From IMG/VR virus record IMGVR_UViG_3300022746_000053, positions 1 to 23,116 of that record: a stretch of DNA of 23,116 bases; one strand, written 5' to 3'. Under the pieces are notes generated by a model that did no database searches, was not told the DNA's origin, and saw only the letters and a program-made list of their open reading frames with translations. Origin of the DNA: a virus. The translations under genes and the position numbers were made by a program. This document shows, piece by piece, positions 14,302-21,265 of this stretch; the first letter of the stretch is position 1, and each line of letters opens with the position of its first letter.

Positions 14302-14467
14302 GATTGCCACCCCATCCTCCGCCTTTGAATTGAATACCAGGTGCGTTGTACACCCGACGTAATGTGCTGCCACATACTGGGCAATCGTACTCTTGTTCTT
14401 CTTCCGTCATGCCACGTTCAATAATAATTACTTGTCCATCACCTGGACATTCGTATTCATAGTTCAT
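14288..14467 (-). CDS. FmdB-type zinc-ribbon protein (59 aa)
   Basis: A short gene read directly: ATG 14465-14467 overlaps the stop of the sigma-like gene (ATGA), and TAA lies at 14288-14290. The product begins MNYEYECPGDGQVIIIERGM and continues with YDCPVCGSTLRRVYNAPGIQ and FKGGGWGG. The N-terminal YEYEC, a CxxC pair about 20 residues later and APGI-FKGGG are the signature of the FmdB putative regulatory protein family, a small zinc ribbon. Cys7, Cys29 and Cys32 are present; the usual second N-terminal Cys is missing (ECPGDG has one). Its role in phages is unknown. It overlaps the glycosyltransferase start by 14 nt, suggesting coupled expression. Confidence 0.82.
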   Translation of the reverse strand: MNYEYECPGDGQVIIIERGMTEEEQEYDCPVCGSTLRRVYNAPGIQFKGGGWGGNHAQG

Positions 14468-15156
14468 TGGTATGGATTCTTTCCGCCAAGATAATCGGCG
14501 ATATCCCGAACACCTTTAGCTACTAGTTGTTCGACTCGTTGAGGTGAGATGTCCCACGCCTTAGCGATATCTGCAAGTGGTAGATCGTGGGTGAATCTAG
14601 AATTGAGAATGCCTTGCATTCTTGGATCAAGCTTAGCCATTGCTTTAGATACATCAGCAATCATTGCTGCTAAATTGTTTCCTTCATTTGCTAGCTTCTT
14701 ATATTGTACGCCGTGTACATCTGGATCAAATACTTGATTAGCCAAGTACGCTTCACCAGAGCCAACAACTTTGATCAGTCCTTCGATTAACTCCAGACGA
14801 TAGAAGTATTCATCACCAAGTTCGTAACCAAGAACCTTTGCCTTTTCCTTGCGAGCGAACCGCTCGCCAGCACGACGGATGAATGTACTAAATGCTTTGT
14901 ATCCTTGTTTCTTTTCGATAGGGTCTTCCCTAACAAGGTATTCCGATACCTTATCTTTACGCTTCCACGCATACTCATTCATTGCTTGACGAATGTCAGC
15001 TTGTTCCGTGTAGCGTGAAAATCTTTTAGACAAGGAATAAGCAATGGTGCTAGTGATGTCATTGACCTCACTCCATATTGGATCGTCTTTACTTAGTTCA
15101 CTCACTGGCTTGTACCAAATACTTGTGTGCTGCAAGTACAATCTCTGGGTCATCAC
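14464..15156 (-). CDS. sigma-70-like factor
   Basis: The 230-residue protein has a sigma region 2-like N-terminal helix set (SEVNDITSTIAYSLSKRFSR followed by EQADIRQAMNEYAW, resembling the core-binding and -10 helices) and a convincing region 4 at residues about 172-226. There AMAKLDPRMQGILNSRF leads into a helix-turn-helix DLPLADIAKAWDISPQRVEQ and a final helix. This two-region layout without regions 1.1 or 3 is typical of small phage-encoded sigma factors that redirect host RNA polymerase. The start is uncertain: GTG at 15156 or ATG at 15153 overlaps the endonuclease gene by about 56 nt with no clear ribosome site, and GTG at 15105 would reduce the overlap. Partner and target promoters are not visible. 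Confidence 0.75.
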   Translation of the reverse strand: MMTQRLYLQHTSIWYKPVSELSKDDPIWSEVNDITSTIAYSLSKRFSRYTEQADIRQAMNEYAWKRKDKVSEYLVREDPIEKKQGYKAFSTFIRRAGERFARKEKAKVLGYELGDEYFYRLELIEGLIKVVGSGEAYLANQVFDPDVHGVQYKKLANEGNNLAAMIADVSKAMAKLDPRMQGILNSRFTHDLPLADIAKAWDISPQRVEQLVAKGVRDIADYLGGKNPYQ

Positions 15157-15693: not shown

Positions 15694-16338
15694 TTAGTCT
15701 AACGCATTGACGAGGTCAGCCAATGCTTGTGCTCCTTGTGTGCAAATTATACTGTTAACATCACTATCAGGTGGTAGCGACACGCGGACAGATTGAGGGA
15801 TTGCATCTTGCAATCGGCGGGCTAGTTCCTGCCCTGGGTTAGAGCCATCCTCTTTAGCATCATTGTCTGTAGCAATAACCACTCGCCCAATTCCATCAAA
15901 GCAACGAGCAAAGTGTGGCTTCCAAGCATTAACGCCAGCAACAGCAACGGCTGGGTAACCAGCCATTGTTGCAGAGATAGCATCTATCTCGCCCTCAACT
16001 ATAAGTACCTGATTGACAGCACCAAGAATTGCAGCAACGTTGTATAGATGATGCTTTTGACCAGTAGGAATCATGTACTTAGGATCACCACCATCTATGC
16101 GACGAAACTTAAACCCAACTACACCAGCCTTGGTAATGTAAGGAATGGATAGGTGATGCTTAAGTCTGTCTTCATGACCAGGTGCAACCTCTGCTACGTA
16201 GCCAAGCTTGAACAACTCGGCTGAATCTAAGATGCCACGGTTAGCTAGATAGGCTTCGGCTGGTGAACCAATAAGACTTTCGTGGTACTGGTCTGCTGCT
16301 CTAGTCCAAAGCTCTACTAGCTTTGGATTAGTTCTCAT
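15694..16338 (-). CDS. DnaG-type primase core (TOPRIM), lacking zinc domain
   Basis: The 214-residue protein carries a Toprim_N-like segment (AYLANRGILDSAELFKLGYV, residues about 30-100) followed by a TOPRIM fold with VLIVEGEIDAIS (Glu115) and VVIATDNDAKEDG (Asp158, Asp160), the metal-binding residues of DnaG. The zinc-binding N-terminal domain of DnaG is absent but is encoded separately at 17067-17396. It has no helicase-binding C-terminus. Start is ATG 16336-16338 with AGGA about 6 nt upstream; the frame stays open to 16410 but that part overlaps the 71-aa gene. It should synthesise RNA primers, probably with the zinc protein supplied in trans (inference). Confidence 0.85.
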   Translation of the reverse strand: MRTNPKLVELWTRAADQYHESLIGSPAEAYLANRGILDSAELFKLGYVAEVAPGHEDRLKHHLSIPYITKAGVVGFKFRRIDGGDPKYMIPTGQKHHLYNVAAILGAVNQVLIVEGEIDAISATMAGYPAVAVAGVNAWKPHFARCFDGIGRVVIATDNDAKEDGSNPGQELARRLQDAIPQSVRVSLPPDSDVNSIICTQGAQALADLVNALD

Positions 16339-16543
16339 CCCATTCCTGCTTTGCCCATAAAGTAAAGTTGATAAAGAAGAATAAGAAGTCGAGTCGTAAG
16401 ACTCGAGCATCTACGTAACTAACGATATCAAGCGAATCTAAATCTTCATAGGCTGAGTACATTGTATGAAACTCCAGTCCTAATCCAAAGCAATGTAAAT
16501 CATTCCAACCAATGTTGATACCTAGTCTGCCGATGTCAATCAT
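16328..16543 (-). CDS. hypothetical protein (71 aa)
   Basis: The ATG 16541-16543 overlaps the stop of the proteasome-like gene (ATGA), a strong sign that this is real, with AGGAGAA about 7 nt upstream. The 71-residue product starts MIDIGRLGINIGWNDLHCFG and is unusually hydrophobic/aromatic, with a stretch LRLDFLFFFINFTLWAKQEW that is either a membrane segment or a buried strand. No family is recognised. It sits between the proteasome-like gene and the primase core and overlaps the latter by 11 nt. Confidence 0.66.
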   Translation of the reverse strand: MIDIGRLGINIGWNDLHCFGLGLEFHTMYSAYEDLDSLDIVSYVDARVLRLDFLFFFINFTLWAKQEWDEN

Positions 16544-17070
16544 TTCTTCTCCTGTCTATGGATTATGAATGGAGGTGCAGTATACACGTCATTCTTTGCT
16601 GCTGTTTGCATTGCTTGCTTCCATGTTGCACCGACAGCCATAGCACCCAACGCCCACTGAGAGCCAGAGCCTATGCCATACAGTCCATCATCACGCAAGT
16701 ATACAGAATAAGAATCATCTATCTGGTAGATGGTTCCATTGACGGCTAGCAATAATTCAAAGCCAGCATCGGGATCATCTTTGTCTGGCACATAGCCAGA
16801 CTCCTTGATGCAATCACGAATGCTTGGAGCAATTGTTGTAATCATAAAATGATATTCATCTTTAGTATTAGCTGGGATAACTGGTGGTTTCCATACGTGT
16901 TGTATTACATCACATGGATGTACGTCACCAGCACCAGCAACCAACCACTTACCACGTTTAGTTATCTTAGTAACTGTCTGATGTGAGAAGGGTCTTCCGC
17001 CTGCTGTTGTGCGGGAATCGGCTACCAACATGCAGCCATTGTCTTGTTGAATTCCAATAATGGTTGTCAC
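16540..17070 (-). CDS. proteasome beta-type Ntn hydrolase
   Basis: The 176-residue protein starts MTTIIGIQQDNGCMLVADSR. Removing Met exposes Thr1, the nucleophile of proteasome beta subunits and HslV. Asp17 (VADSR) and Lys34 (TVTKI, equivalent of Lys33) complete the catalytic set, and GSGS (134-137) plus D161-V-Y-T164 match the family Ser129/Asp166/Ser169 positions. Thus it looks catalytically competent, with no propeptide. It is shorter than host beta subunits (about 240) and has no alpha partner in this window. The start is GTG at 17068-17070 overlapping the CHC2 stop (GTGA). Substrate unknown: virion maturation, host-factor cleavage or subunit mimicry are all possible. Confidence 0.8.
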   Translation of the reverse strand: MTTIIGIQQDNGCMLVADSRTTAGGRPFSHQTVTKITKRGKWLVAGAGDVHPCDVIQHVWKPPVIPANTKDEYHFMITTIAPSIRDCIKESGYVPDKDDPDAGFELLLAVNGTIYQIDDSYSVYLRDDGLYGIGSGSQWALGAMAVGATWKQAMQTAAKNDVYTAPPFIIHRQEKK

Positions 17071-17396
17071 TTACGCAACCTTGGCGGTGTCCACCTACCG
17101 CTTGTCTTCCTAGTGCCACGACTTACTGGCGTGTGTGACTGAGTTGACTCAGCACCTATGTTTGTTTCTGCCCATTTGCGAGCTTCTGGGTATGTCATGT
17201 TCTCTCTAGCCATAACTATGTGGATACCAGACCCACTGGCATGACAGGCATAACATACCCAGACGCCCTTCTCTGAGTTCACCGAAGCAGACTTCTTTGA
17301 ATCATCGTGTACAGGACATAGGATTGACTTCTCACCTTGCGGTAAGGTCAAGCCATAATGATTAAAGACTGCTTCAAGAAACTCAGGCTGGTTCAT
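17067..17396 (-). CDS. CHC2 zinc domain of DnaG-type primase (stand-alone)
   Basis: This 109-residue protein is a DnaG N-terminal zinc-binding domain: ILCPVHDDSKKSASVNSEKG then VWVCYACHASGSGIHIVM, with Cys27, His30, Cys48 and Cys51 (CxxH-x17-CxxC). A Ser/Thr/Arg-rich basic tail (about 85-109) follows where DnaG normally continues into the RNA polymerase domain. It would recognise primer initiation sites and act together with the TOPRIM core at 15694-16338. The start is ATG 17394-17396, with AAGGAA about 11 nt upstream. It lies directly downstream of the transglycosylase-like gene. Confidence 0.85.
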   Translation of the reverse strand: MNQPEFLEAVFNHYGLTLPQGEKSILCPVHDDSKKSASVNSEKGVWVCYACHASGSGIHIVMARENMTYPEARKWAETNIGAESTQSHTPVSRGTRKTSGRWTPPRLRK

Positions 17397-17817: not shown

Positions 17818-18166
17818 TATGTCCATTGTAACCTGCCTGTTTTAGCAGATCAGCCCAGAGCCATGCGGGCATTACCGCGTATGACTCTGAGACATTTGTA
17901 GTGCCACGCTTTTTTATTAGCACCACGCCAGTCTCAGCATCAGCATGAGTCATCTCATCCGAGAGTTCTTGCAGATAGCTACTGAGAGTGATCTTCTTTT
18001 CGTTCTTACATTCTATCACTACGCCATCGATGCCATCAATATCACCAACATCGTCGTGACGACCTGCACCATACGCACGTTCAGCGCATGGAAAACCATA
18101 AGAGACTAGCCACTTGGCTACGTCTCTTTCATATTGAGAACCCTTGCGTTTAGCGGGTGTGCTCAT
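17813..18166 (-). CDS. Hjc-like Holliday junction resolvase (PD-(D/E)XK)
   Basis: The 117-residue protein carries the archaeal-type Hjc/phage resolvase pattern: KGSQYERDVAKWL (Glu13), then AYGAGRHDDVGDIDG (Asp42) and GVVIECKNEK (Glu52-x-Lys54), followed by a helix and VVLIKKRG. These residues form the metal site that cuts four-way junctions. It begins at ATG 18166 overlapping the WhiB stop (ATGA). Its last codons form the left arm of the hairpin in front of the transglycosylase gene. It probably resolves recombination intermediates of concatemeric replication. Confidence 0.8.
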   Translation of the reverse strand: MSTPAKRKGSQYERDVAKWLVSYGFPCAERAYGAGRHDDVGDIDGIDGVVIECKNEKKITLSSYLQELSDEMTHADAETGVVLIKKRGTTNVSESYAVMPAWLWADLLKQAGYNGHR

Positions 18167-18420
18167 AGATAATCGCTAACCAAAATAGATTGAACAGTTA
18201 TACCCATTGTTCTACGCATCATCATTCTTGTACGTGGCACAGTGCCACCCCATATACCAAAGGTTTCATGATGCAATCCCCATTCTAAACACTCGTTAAT
18301 TACTGGACAATTACTGCAAATCTTTTTAGCTAATGGAACAATACTTACATCATCTTCTGGATAGAAGAACTCAACACCAACTTCTCTACACAATGCATCA
18401 CTAAAGTCTGGATATTTCAT
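18163..18420 (-). CDS. whiB: WhiB-family iron-sulphur regulator
   Basis: WhiB proteins carry a [4Fe-4S] cluster and regulate transcription with the primary sigma factor; they are confined to Actinobacteria and their phages. The 85-residue product shows Cys11 (DALC), then ICSNC (Cys35, Cys38) and ECLEWG (Cys44), followed by the GIWGG turn (55-59) and a basic C-terminus (RTRMMMRR) that contacts DNA. The ATG at 18418-18420 is preferred to an upstream TTG at 18435; it overlaps the preceding nuclease gene by 20 nt. Mycobacteriophage TM4 WhiB causes superinfection exclusion, a precedent for function. It shares an operon with a sigma-like factor. Confidence 0.93.
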   Translation of the reverse strand: MKYPDFSDALCREVGVEFFYPEDDVSIVPLAKKICSNCPVINECLEWGLHHETFGIWGGTVPRTRMMMRRTMGITVQSILVSDYL

Positions 18421-18919
18421 TGACAAGACTCTCAATCGGTTGTAGTTGATTAGCGTCCATTACTAATCGAGTACCGTAACCATAGTCATGTAGATAATGG
18501 TTCGCAAGAAATACTTCTCTAGTAACCCAGCCCATTACATCAAACTCACTGTCAACATGTGGCAGTTGTTTATCTCCAGAAAACTTAACCAATATTGCAA
18601 TGTCGGATACAAATAAATCTGCTGCATTAAATATTAATTGCGGTAGTGTCGACGTCTTAACCTGTAAAGTTCTACCCAATATTGTCTTGAGGTCGTGTCC
18701 ATCATCACCGCTCGGCGTAATGCTGTTGTCCACTTGTAGCCCAAGGATCTGAGCAGCTGCCATCTCACCCAAGCGACCCATAAGATTAACGGAATACGAG
18801 GAATTGTTTTTATCAAACTTACGATCCGTGACTTCATACTGTTTCTTATTCTCTCTTACTCTATGTACAAACCTTAATGCATCCATTAGTTCATCTTCAG
18901 AAAGAATAACTATTGCCAT
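18401..18919 (-). CDS. PD-(D/E)XK nuclease-like protein
   Basis: The 172-residue protein has a restriction-endonuclease-like core: a GRLGEMAAAQILG helix with Glu52, then GDDGHDLKT (Asp73/Asp76) and LQVKTS (Gln86-x-Lys88), in the order and spacing of the PD-(D/E)XK fold, with Gln replacing the usual Glu in the (E/Q)xK motif. The C-terminal part is mixed strands and helices without a known domain. The start at ATG 18919 overlaps the ATPase gene by 10 nt. It might be a recombination or DNA-processing nuclease of the phage, or an anti-host nuclease; the family is not resolved. Confidence 0.66.
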   Translation of the reverse strand: MAIVILSEDELMDALRFVHRVRENKKQYEVTDRKFDKNNSSYSVNLMGRLGEMAAAQILGLQVDNSITPSGDDGHDLKTILGRTLQVKTSTLPQLIFNAADLFVSDIAILVKFSGDKQLPHVDSEFDVMGWVTREVFLANHYLHDYGYGTRLVMDANQLQPIESLVNEISRL

Positions 18920-19743
18920 TGACGTAACGTCCTAGCTCTTTGTAAATCAGCGGGAGAGTTATATAAACTCATGTGTGCTGGCTCGGCAGATAAAGTAATA
19001 AAGTTTTCTGCAGTTGGGTCTGCTTTACCATGACGATTCTTAACCACAGCAATGCGATAAGCATTTGCTGCACCATCTAATGCCACACTAAGAACCAGTT
19101 CAGGTAGTGCTGATACCTTGCCCATCAACGCCTTACGTGGCGCAGGATAGTTTGGCTTTGACATCTTCTCATTCTCAGATACATGGTGGAGAACAATAAA
19201 TGCTGATTCATATTCACGTGCCATATAGTGAAAGGCTGACATGGCATCACGTAATGCAGTCCACTCGTTGTCACTCATGGCTGCTACGTTCATTAAGTTA
19301 TCAATGTAGATTGCCTCTGGTGGAGCACCGTGCAATTCAATCCAAGCTTCTATCTCTTCCTCGATGTCTTGAAGAGATGGTGACGGATCAAAGTTGAATC
19401 GAATATGTGCTGCACCATCGGCAAGAGCGTCTTCTAATAAGACGCTAGCCTCCGAGTCCATCATCTTCTCAACGTCTGACACAGGCTTATCCATAATGAT
19501 TGCTCCTGCACGAAGGGCAATGGTTCTTGAGTCTGAGTCTGCTGAAAAGTAAAGAGCTGGAGTCTTTGAAGTTACGGCGTACCACAATGCAAGCATCGTC
19601 TTACCACCACCTGGTTGCGCTGCAACCAAATGTAACTGTGCTTGGCGAAAGGTAACCTGAGCACCTGTAAGTTGAGGAAGAATCTCTGGCAGGGCGTGAC
19701 CTGCTGGAGATTCCACTCCGACTACTTGCAATAGTGAACGCAT
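18910..19743 (-). CDS. DnaB/RecA-type helicase ATPase
   Basis: A 277-residue RecA-fold ATPase: Walker A QPGGGKTM (43-50), a strand ALYFSADSD after it, Walker B EAIYIDN (143-149), a switch segment IVLHHVSE (183-190) and an arginine-finger-like VKNRHGKADP (234-243), the arrangement of the DnaB C-terminal helicase domain. The DnaB N-terminal domain is absent and the protein is shorter than typical DnaB (about 450), so it is either a minimal phage replicative helicase or a RecA-like recombination ATPase. The start at ATG 19743 is 5 nt after the stop of the preceding gene. With the two primase pieces it forms the replication set of this operon. Confidence 0.85.
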   Translation of the reverse strand: MRSLLQVVGVESPAGHALPEILPQLTGAQVTFRQAQLHLVAAQPGGGKTMLALWYAVTSKTPALYFSADSDSRTIALRAGAIIMDKPVSDVEKMMDSEASVLLEDALADGAAHIRFNFDPSPSLQDIEEEIEAWIELHGAPPEAIYIDNLMNVAAMSDNEWTALRDAMSAFHYMAREYESAFIVLHHVSENEKMSKPNYPAPRKALMGKVSALPELVLSVALDGAANAYRIAVVKNRHGKADPTAENFITLSAEPAHMSLYNSPADLQRARTLRQWQ

Positions 19744-19747
19744 TTAA

Positions 19748-20227
19748 TTACTTAGCCCAGATGGTTTCTGCTTCTGTTGCACCTGGTGTGAAAGGCTTCG
19801 GTCCCTTAGCTGGGTCAAACCAACCAACGTAAGCCTTGCCAGCCTTGGAAGTACCCTTTTTCTTTGCGTACTTGCCACGACCGTCTGGTAGTGCTGGTGC
19901 ATCTGGATGTCCATATGTCCATTCATTACCATAGCGATCCATAATTACTTCAATTGCTTGAGGAGTTGCGGTTCCTGTAGCAACTGGAGTTGGATTGAGT
20001 CCTGCATCCTTTAACATCTGCAATGCTGCATCTGTATTAGGTGTATATGCATTCCCTGATGCACCGCCTGAACGGTTATTCAGTGTCTGCTGTAGCGCAG
20101 TAGCCTCAGCGATTGCTTCGACTGCTGCTGTTAGGTTTGCTTTGAATTCACTTACGCTATTGCCACGCACAGTGAATAGGTCAGTTGAGTTCAACTTACC
20201 TGTGTATGAGAACGTAGATTCAGTCAT
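19748..20227 (-). CDS. unknown replication-operon protein (159 aa)
   Basis: The 159-residue product starts MTESTFSYTGKLNSTDLFTV. Its first 50 residues contain a beta hairpin followed by a long helix (VSEFKANLTAAVEAIAEATA). A low-complexity Ser/Gly/Asn linker follows (residues about 55-65), then a C-terminal domain with GNEWTYGHPDAPALPDGRG and a Lys-rich YAKKKGTSKAGKAYVGWFDP. The last motif and basic patch would suit single-stranded DNA binding, and its neighbours are a Cas4-like nuclease and a DnaB-like ATPase, so an SSB-like or annealing role is a reasonable guess, but I do not recognise the family. The ATG at 20227 overlaps the upstream stop by 8 nt, with AGGAG 9 nt upstream. Confidence 0.7.
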   Translation of the reverse strand: MTESTFSYTGKLNSTDLFTVRGNSVSEFKANLTAAVEAIAEATALQQTLNNRSGGASGNAYTPNTDAALQMLKDAGLNPTPVATGTATPQAIEVIMDRYGNEWTYGHPDAPALPDGRGKYAKKKGTSKAGKAYVGWFDPAKGPKPFTPGATEAETIWAK

Positions 20228-20897
20228 CTAGTTCATCTCCTTTTCTTTTTCCCTGAATTTGTAATGGGAAATCTTTACCACCCATTGCAGGGCATTGTGC
20301 CGTAAAACTACACATCCTGCATGAGTCACCAACTGATGGCGGAAACCAACCCTCCCAAACGGAAGCGTTCATTGCGCCAAATACATAATCAAAATATTCC
20401 ATTGTCAAATGTGACAAGTCAATTAATTCATCAAGCTCGCCCTTGCGAGTCATAAAGAAAGCACCCCACTTAGGGCGGATGCCATAACTTCTTTCAATAC
20501 CAGAAGCATAAAGTCCTGCTTGGATAGCACCGAAGGGTGTCCTGGAACCAGTCTTGTAGTCAACGATAACTAAGTCTTCCCCTACTTGGTATACCGCATC
20601 AACAACCATACGCACTGGTGTACCCCCGAAGAATACATCAGCAGCCCATTCGATTCCAGGACGCCCATCGGGCATAGTAGCGATCTTCCAACCAGACTGC
20701 TTGTACCAGTTATGGTACGCCTCAACCTGCTTGAGTCCATCGCTCTGCCAGAAAGGCAGGTCTTCCCCGTCAGGGCGTAAGGTGGTCTTACGCCCTGCGG
20801 TCTTCCACTCCGAAGAGGGAATGCCAGTTTTCTGTTCCGTCTCTAGGACAGCATCATTAAATACTTCTGCCCACTTAGTTGTCAAATCGATATTCAT
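20220..20897 (-). CDS. Cas4/RecB-like nuclease, C-terminal part
   Basis: This 225-residue protein has the second half of a RecB/Cas4-type PD-(D/E)XK exonuclease: MVVDAVYQVG (Asp100), IVDYKTGS (Asp113-x-Lys115), the QxxxY helix QAGLY (126-130), and a C-terminal Cys set DSCRMCSFTAQCPA (Cys193, 196, 202), three of the four ligands of the Cas4 [4Fe-4S] cluster. The N-terminal elements, the first cluster Cys and motif I, are missing here but lie in the separate ORF at 21071-21265. The start at ATG 20897 has GGAA about 5 nt upstream and overlaps the zinc-ribbon gene. It is probably a 5' end-processing or recombination nuclease when paired with the N-terminal piece (inference). Confidence 0.85.
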   Translation of the reverse strand: MNIDLTTKWAEVFNDAVLETEQKTGIPSSEWKTAGRKTTLRPDGEDLPFWQSDGLKQVEAYHNWYKQSGWKIATMPDGRPGIEWAADVFFGGTPVRMVVDAVYQVGEDLVIVDYKTGSRTPFGAIQAGLYASGIERSYGIRPKWGAFFMTRKGELDELIDLSHLTMEYFDYVFGAMNASVWEGWFPPSVGDSCRMCSFTAQCPAMGGKDFPLQIQGKRKGDELDD

Positions 20898-21105
20898 CGG
20901 GGTTCCAATCTGGGTGATCTACTGGTGTTGGTGCTGTCATTGGTGAGCCACACTGGGCGCAGAACGAATCTAAGAACCACATAACCAACTCGTAGTCTGA
21001 AAATACCGCTCTGATTACTTGGACGTTACTACCGCAATTGATACACTCATTGCTAGGTACGCCCCGCTGGTCAATCCCCTGTGGATTGCTGTCGGTAGAG
21101 CTCAT
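20875..21105 (-). CDS. zinc-ribbon protein between the halves of the Cas4-like nuclease
   Basis: The 76-residue product begins MSSTDSNPQGIDQRGVPSNE and holds CINCGSN and, 27 residues later, CAQCGSP, two CxxCG knuckles that define a zinc ribbon, then an acidic Pro/Asp-rich tail (PVDHPDWNPDEYRFDN). It overlaps the N-terminal nuclease ORF by 35 nt and the C-terminal ORF by 23 nt, in a different frame from both. The ATG at 21105 has GGAG about 10 nt upstream. It may be an independent small gene that landed in the nuclease gene, or an insert domain joined by two frameshifts. The family is not recognised. Confidence 0.7.
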   Translation of the reverse strand: MSSTDSNPQGIDQRGVPSNECINCGSNVQVIRAVFSDYELVMWFLDSFCAQCGSPMTAPTPVDHPDWNPDEYRFDN

Positions 21106-21265
21106 GGTTTAACCACTCCAACATTGAATGGACGGCGGAACCAGCAGCCAAATAGACGGCTGGTTTTTCTGGAACCATGGCTACCTTACTCAGATAATAT
21201 TTCTGAGGGCATGACTGCCAAGTAGATAGCTGGCTAAATGATCTATGAGGAGGAAGTTCATTCAT
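21071..21265 (-). CDS. Cas4/RecB-like nuclease, N-terminal part
   Basis: The 64-residue product starts MNELPPHRSFSQLSTWQSCP. SFSQLSTWQSCPQKYYLSKV (Cys19 probably the first Fe-S ligand of Cas4-type nucleases) and AAGSAVHSMLEWL (motif I, His46) are the normal N-terminal segment of phage RecB/Cas4-like exonucleases. It stops after the motif I helix, where family members continue with the sequence now found in the 20220-20897 ORF. It is the first gene of the long minus operon. The ATG at 21265 has no obvious ribosome site, and three 10-bp repeats lie directly upstream. Confidence 0.78.
   Translation of the reverse strand: MNELPPHRSFSQLSTWQSCPQKYYLSKVAMVPEKPAVYLAAGSAVHSMLEWLNHELYRQQSTGD

Follow-up and report, generated by a model that had tools for sequence, protein, structure and literature searches.

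Actinophage exonucleases of the phrog_1870 family, such as ORF68 of Mycobacterium phage SWU2 and gp36 of Streptomyces phage Ponzi, are single chains of 259-264 aa. The nuclease domains of AdnA and AddB and the Cas4-family protein ACE1 (PDB 9np6, 4cej and 9iac), which were the nearest solved folds to a fusion modelled in this work, are likewise domains of one chain or single-chain proteins. On the other hand, there are phage enzymes whose two chains are encoded on either side of another ORF. Namely, the NrdA of Aeromonas phage Aeh1 is encoded by genes-in-pieces and is functional, and the T4 topoisomerase gene 60 is also split (PMC2988022). In both of these phages the gene was split by a homing endonuclease.

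Here, we analyzed one actinophage virus record of IMG/VR (IMGVR_UViG_3300022746_000053; all of its 23,116 bases are called the window below), where a nuclease with the same motif residues and the same DnaB-like helicase neighbours as the SWU2 and Ponzi exonucleases was encoded by two chains rather than one. The two halves shared 34-43% identity with SWU2 ORF68 and, together with a zinc-ribbon ORF located between them, occupied three different reading frames, all on the minus strand (Table 1). The locus was similar to Aeh1 NrdA and T4 gene 60 in that a phage enzyme was cut into two chains around another ORF. However, the gap of this nuclease was either empty or occupied by the ribbon or by other ORFs, and the split extended over the whole lineage. 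As in other genes-in-pieces, each chain appeared to carry a part of one active site, and there were relatives with a single chain.

Table 1. Positions of the split nuclease, its neighbours and the gap ORFs of related loci (window positions unless a locus is named)
Feature	Position	Strand	Remarks
N-half of PDDEXK_1/Cas4-like nuclease, 64 aa	21071-21265	-	S-x-S-Q, C19 (first Fe-S Cys), H46 (motif I), Glu50
Zinc-ribbon ORF, 76 aa	20875-21105	-	CxxC-x24-CxxC, acidic tail; between both halves, overlapping each
C-half of nuclease, 225 aa	20220-20897	-	E83, D100, D113-x-K115, Q126-xxx-Y130, C193, C196, C202
35-nt overlap, N-half end / zinc-ribbon start	21071-21105	-	
23-nt overlap, zinc-ribbon end / C-half start	20875-20897	-	
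Gene downstream of the C-half, 159 aa, without family match	19748-20227	-	conserved neighbour in group 1
DnaB-like helicase/RecA-fold ATPase	18910-19743	-	phrog_243, E 9e-75
WhiB-like protein	18163-18435	-	
Primase ORF, CHC2 zinc-finger protein	17067-17396	-	
HslV/proteasome-like peptidase ORF	16540-17070	-	separates CHC2 and Toprim ORFs
Primase ORF, Toprim protein	15694-16410	-	
Sigma-70-region-4-like protein	14464-15156	-	
Gap ORF, basic, ~110 aa, no clear family match	L291:2682-3011	+	
Gap ORF, basic, ~110 aa, no clear family match	L297:2661-3005	+	
Gap ORFs, 107 + 218 aa; no clear family match for the 218-aa ORF	L263:2045-3017	+	~1 kb between halves; near-identical contigs likewise

A sequence-only reading of the window had assigned the first Fe-S cysteine and the motif-I histidine to the N-terminal ORF, the D, DxK and QxxxY motifs with three more cysteines to the C-terminal ORF, and a zinc ribbon in a third frame to the ORF overlapping both. 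All of these residues, as well as the coordinates and the overlaps, turned out to be right. The Pfam PDDEXK_1 profile (PF12705) matched the N-half over profile positions 3-53 (E 2.7e-7, 31.2 bits) and the C-half over positions 109-247 of 247 (E 2.6e-7, 31.3 bits); both scores were above the curated cut-off of 22 bits, and the two matches covered complementary parts of the profile. Similarly, the phrog_1870 exonuclease profile was aligned to the N-half at positions 11-68 and to the C-half at positions 75-293 (E 4e-57), and phrog_69 also matched the N-half (E 2e-11). Since both halves adjoined each other in the phrog_1870 profile, the zinc ribbon was an extra element. The Cas_Cas4 profile (PF01930) scored 16.1 bits against the C-half, under its cut-off of 22.7, and the nuclease was therefore filed as PDDEXK_1/Cas4-like rather than as Cas4 proper.

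The motif residues were very well preserved. Among 124 distinct N-halves, C19 was kept in 121 and H46 in 123, while E83, D100, K115, Q126, Y130, C193, C196 and C202 were present in all 140 distinct C-halves and D113 in 139 of them. The cysteines followed the four-Cys Cas4-type pattern, with one N-terminal residue located on the N-half and three C-terminal ones on the C-half, and these four are probably the ligands of an Fe-S cluster. Two aberrant C-halves were also observed. One of them (L457:2494-3046) had an in-frame deletion of the active-site VDLK segment and was a dead copy or else the result of misassembly; the other (L134:895-1564) was interrupted, in that contig only, by a stop or frameshift that divided it into two ORFs.

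Viral contigs were scanned with each half, which gave 148 and 171 relatives, and the best 80 of each were kept. Wherever both halves were present in these two sets, the zinc ribbon was located between them, and neither the order nor the relative frames of the three ORFs varied; this arrangement (group 1) was retained down to about 70% identity of the C-half. A tblastn search of named phages returned mostly single-chain 'Cas4 exonucleases'. However, the nuclease of OX376641 (LanE43-AprF5) was split at the same site without a ribbon, and OX376640 (LanE43-AprE7) had the same split as F5. Both names match those of the first Ca. Planktophila phages brought into culture (PMC10202952), and the main text of that paper makes no mention of an exonuclease or Cas4. 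In the open-access literature that we searched, we did not encounter a Cas4-like phage nuclease described as being in two pieces. A further scan with the C-half of F5 gave 305 relatives, and in most of the loci examined among the best 80 of these the N- and C-halves overlapped directly. Thus, judging from the alignments, there is a second split clade (group 2, including E7 and F5) with the same loop cut, where the ribbon is absent from the gap.

Altogether, we obtained 193 distinct N-C DNA stretches with the split (104 with ribbon-type spacing, 84 with nothing between the halves and 5 others) and 48 distinct single-chain loci; the three split classes were defined by gap length, the ribbon itself having been detected in the loci of the first two scans. 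C-halves without an N-half all began within 221 nt of a locus end (13/13). When 25 split virus records and F5 were searched whole, each had one N+C pair except G009, and no intact spare copy of the nuclease was found in these possibly incomplete records. The exception was a 45.5-kb record (locus L289) with pairs at 1702-2446 and 40997-41744, near both of its ends, which was perhaps a chimera or two related phages. In cellular genome contigs the relatives were limited to two Streptomyces loci, both single-chain. The relatives were also compared for each ORF occurring alone as a complete protein, a finding that would have spoken against the split according to the sequence-only reading; this gave only a weakly similar zinc ribbon and neither of the halves.

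In a tree built from the joined N- and C-halves, all the split forms together with the L364 locus formed one side of a single branch (support 97/89, and 96/90 without the longest branches). L364 was a single in-frame fusion of the N- and C-halves without a ribbon or spacer, observed in one contig. It nested inside group 2, with an AU p of 0.008 against excluding it, and since it was located within a split clade it was best read as a re-fusion. The single-chain L362 adjoined the split side of the tree, and its placement with either split group was not rejected (AU p 0.40 and 0.38). The tree thus favoured one split, and two independent splits are possible because the AU tests did not reject L362 with either group.

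The natural fusion L364 was modelled with AlphaFold2 with good overall confidence (pLDDT 88, pTM 0.84), while residues 44-53, around motif I and the join, had pLDDT below 50. Among solved structures, the AdnA nuclease domain was the best match to this model (Z 14.7), and AddB, ACE1, Exo5 and the Cas4 of a Cas4-Cas1-Cas2 complex were also found; a sequence profile search retrieved ACE1 and AdnA first. The RecB nuclease fold was thus obtained, for the fused relative only. According to the alignment with the single chains, the chain break follows directly on the motif-I helix and is located in the loop that leads to the next helix.

The contents of the gap were variable. In L291, L297 and L387 from group 2, a basic protein of about 110 aa was encoded between the halves, and such extra gap ORFs occurred in a minority of the examined group-2 loci. 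No significant endonuclease match, including to a homing endonuclease, was obtained for the gap ORFs. The junction behaved as if it were a tolerated insertion slot for unrelated ORFs. With respect to the ribbon, C21, C24, C49 and C52 were invariant in 26 aligned rows of group 1, although its assignment rested on this CxxC...CxxC pattern, with all Pfam matches being under the curated cut-off. In group-1 genomes the gap copy was the only zinc ribbon present, whereas most of the group-2 genomes searched had one weak ribbon match elsewhere (E 1e-5 to 4e-9). This was a small protein with a TAPTPxD motif near its end that adjoined a lysozyme-like gene, and its homology to the group-1 ribbon was based on the weak profile match. 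Against isolate phages, the window's ribbon had no tblastn match at E 0.1, and the group-2 ribbon matched E7 and F5 only. A structure model of the ribbon alone was poor (pLDDT 56) and was left unused. Since the ribbon was absent from the group-2 gap and had a weak match elsewhere in group 2, it behaves, by these comparisons, as an independent gene that is not necessary for the split state.

The nuclease belonged to a conserved replication module, which also contained primase parts, a DnaB-like helicase and a putative PDDEXK resolvase. The helicase was found close to the nuclease not only in both split groups but also in the single-chain relatives. CHC2 primase proteins that stand alone are already known as a phage family (phrog_360). 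Such two-gene actinophage primases, where phrog_360 is accompanied by a Toprim part, were another case of a replication enzyme encoded by two ORFs, in the window as well as in its relatives. However, the primase break fell between separate domains, whereas the nuclease break was inside one catalytic domain. In group-2 phages, the two primase ORFs were close together. WhiB-like and sigma-70-region-4-like proteins were of kinds known from Planktophila phages too, which fits an actinobacterial host.

Outside the overlaps, the median dN/dS was 0.013 for the N-half, 0.068 for the ribbon and 0.104 for the C-half, which are rough values with dS above 1 and near saturation. Synonymous change was far above amino-acid change in all three ORFs, and this excess, together with the constant order and frames, suggested that the arrangement was more than chance. 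Moreover, indels between group-1 loci were multiples of three, as overlapping genes would predict. The start ATG of the ribbon was nearly always kept in the relatives (it was GTG in L107 and lost in L033). Shine-Dalgarno-like AAGGAG, AAGGA or GAGG preceded the ATG of the C-half in many relatives; no such match was present ahead of the C-half in the window or its own lineage. The ORFs appear to be initiated separately, and initiation is probably coupled through the overlaps.

The sequence-only reading had left three alternatives, of which the real split nuclease was supported by the conserved split in the relatives. There was next to no chance that the arrangement resulted from assembly or sequencing errors: indel errors can yield overlapping ORFs in three frames, but the 193 distinct split sequences came from many samples and two isolate genomes, and each ORF was under strong purifying selection. 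The remaining alternative, that two programmed +1 frameshifts join the N-half, the ribbon as an insertion domain and the C-half into one polypeptide, was quite unlikely. Both group-1 junctions always needed a +1 shift and the ORFs overlapped. However, constant frames are expected anyway, since indels must preserve overlapping ORFs, and neither junction had a conserved slippery sequence. Moreover, group 2 had a different N-to-C frame and no ribbon, some of its gaps held other ORFs or about 1 kb, a similar ribbon stood alone elsewhere, and L364 was fused without one.

Two further explanations were considered. It was unlikely that the two nuclease chains require the ribbon as a third subunit for their bridging or regulation. 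This heterotrimer would explain why the ribbon was strongly selected and never missing from the gap of a group-1 relative that had both halves, but the group-2 split site and the single-chain relatives lacked it and other ORFs filled the same gap. The similar ribbon of group 2, which sat beside the lysozyme-like gene, could still act in trans. Decay of the nuclease, with the C-half being a leftover or having a new non-nuclease role, was very unlikely. The halves were physically separate genes and the L457 contig lacked a part of the catalytic core; nevertheless, the catalytic and Cys residues were essentially invariant in both halves over wide divergence.

Therefore, weighing these points, we consider it highly probable that the locus encodes a two-chain Fe-S nuclease. 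From the observed sequences, their conservation, co-occurrence, selection and clade structure, we infer the following assembly, cluster, activity and role. The three ORFs would form one operon and be translated as separate genes, and the products of the first and the third would be the two chains that make up a PD-(D/E)XK exonuclease of the Cas4/AdnA-nuclease type. The 64-aa chain would dock on the 225-aa chain and supply the first Fe-S Cys and the motif-I His, while the C-chain would contribute the Asp residues that bind the metal, the Lys and Gln and the remaining three Cys, so that the active site and the cluster would straddle the chain interface. The overlapping cistrons may keep both chains made together. 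The zinc ribbon would be a gene of its own that has settled between the halves in one lineage, either as a passenger or as an optional partner. Most likely, the role of the enzyme is to process DNA ends when the phage DNA is replicated and recombined. There was about an even chance of a more specific version, where the two-chain Cas4-like nuclease is obligate, the Fe-S cluster staples the two chains together (with one Cys of the small chain and three of the large one), activity requires both a loaded cluster and paired chains, and the gene junction is a slot for different small phage genes.

If this two-chain model is true, the phages would possess a naturally split single-domain nuclease, where the catalytic residues and a metal cluster are shared between two chains, and selection would be maintaining the split in phages that infect some of the most abundant bacteria of lakes. 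Since two of the carriers (E7 and F5) have been cultured, experiments can address whether the chains pair, how the cluster is assembled and whether the small chain is needed. The family would also provide a clean case for studying why genes split and stay split, with one relative showing that a small change at the junction can rejoin the halves.
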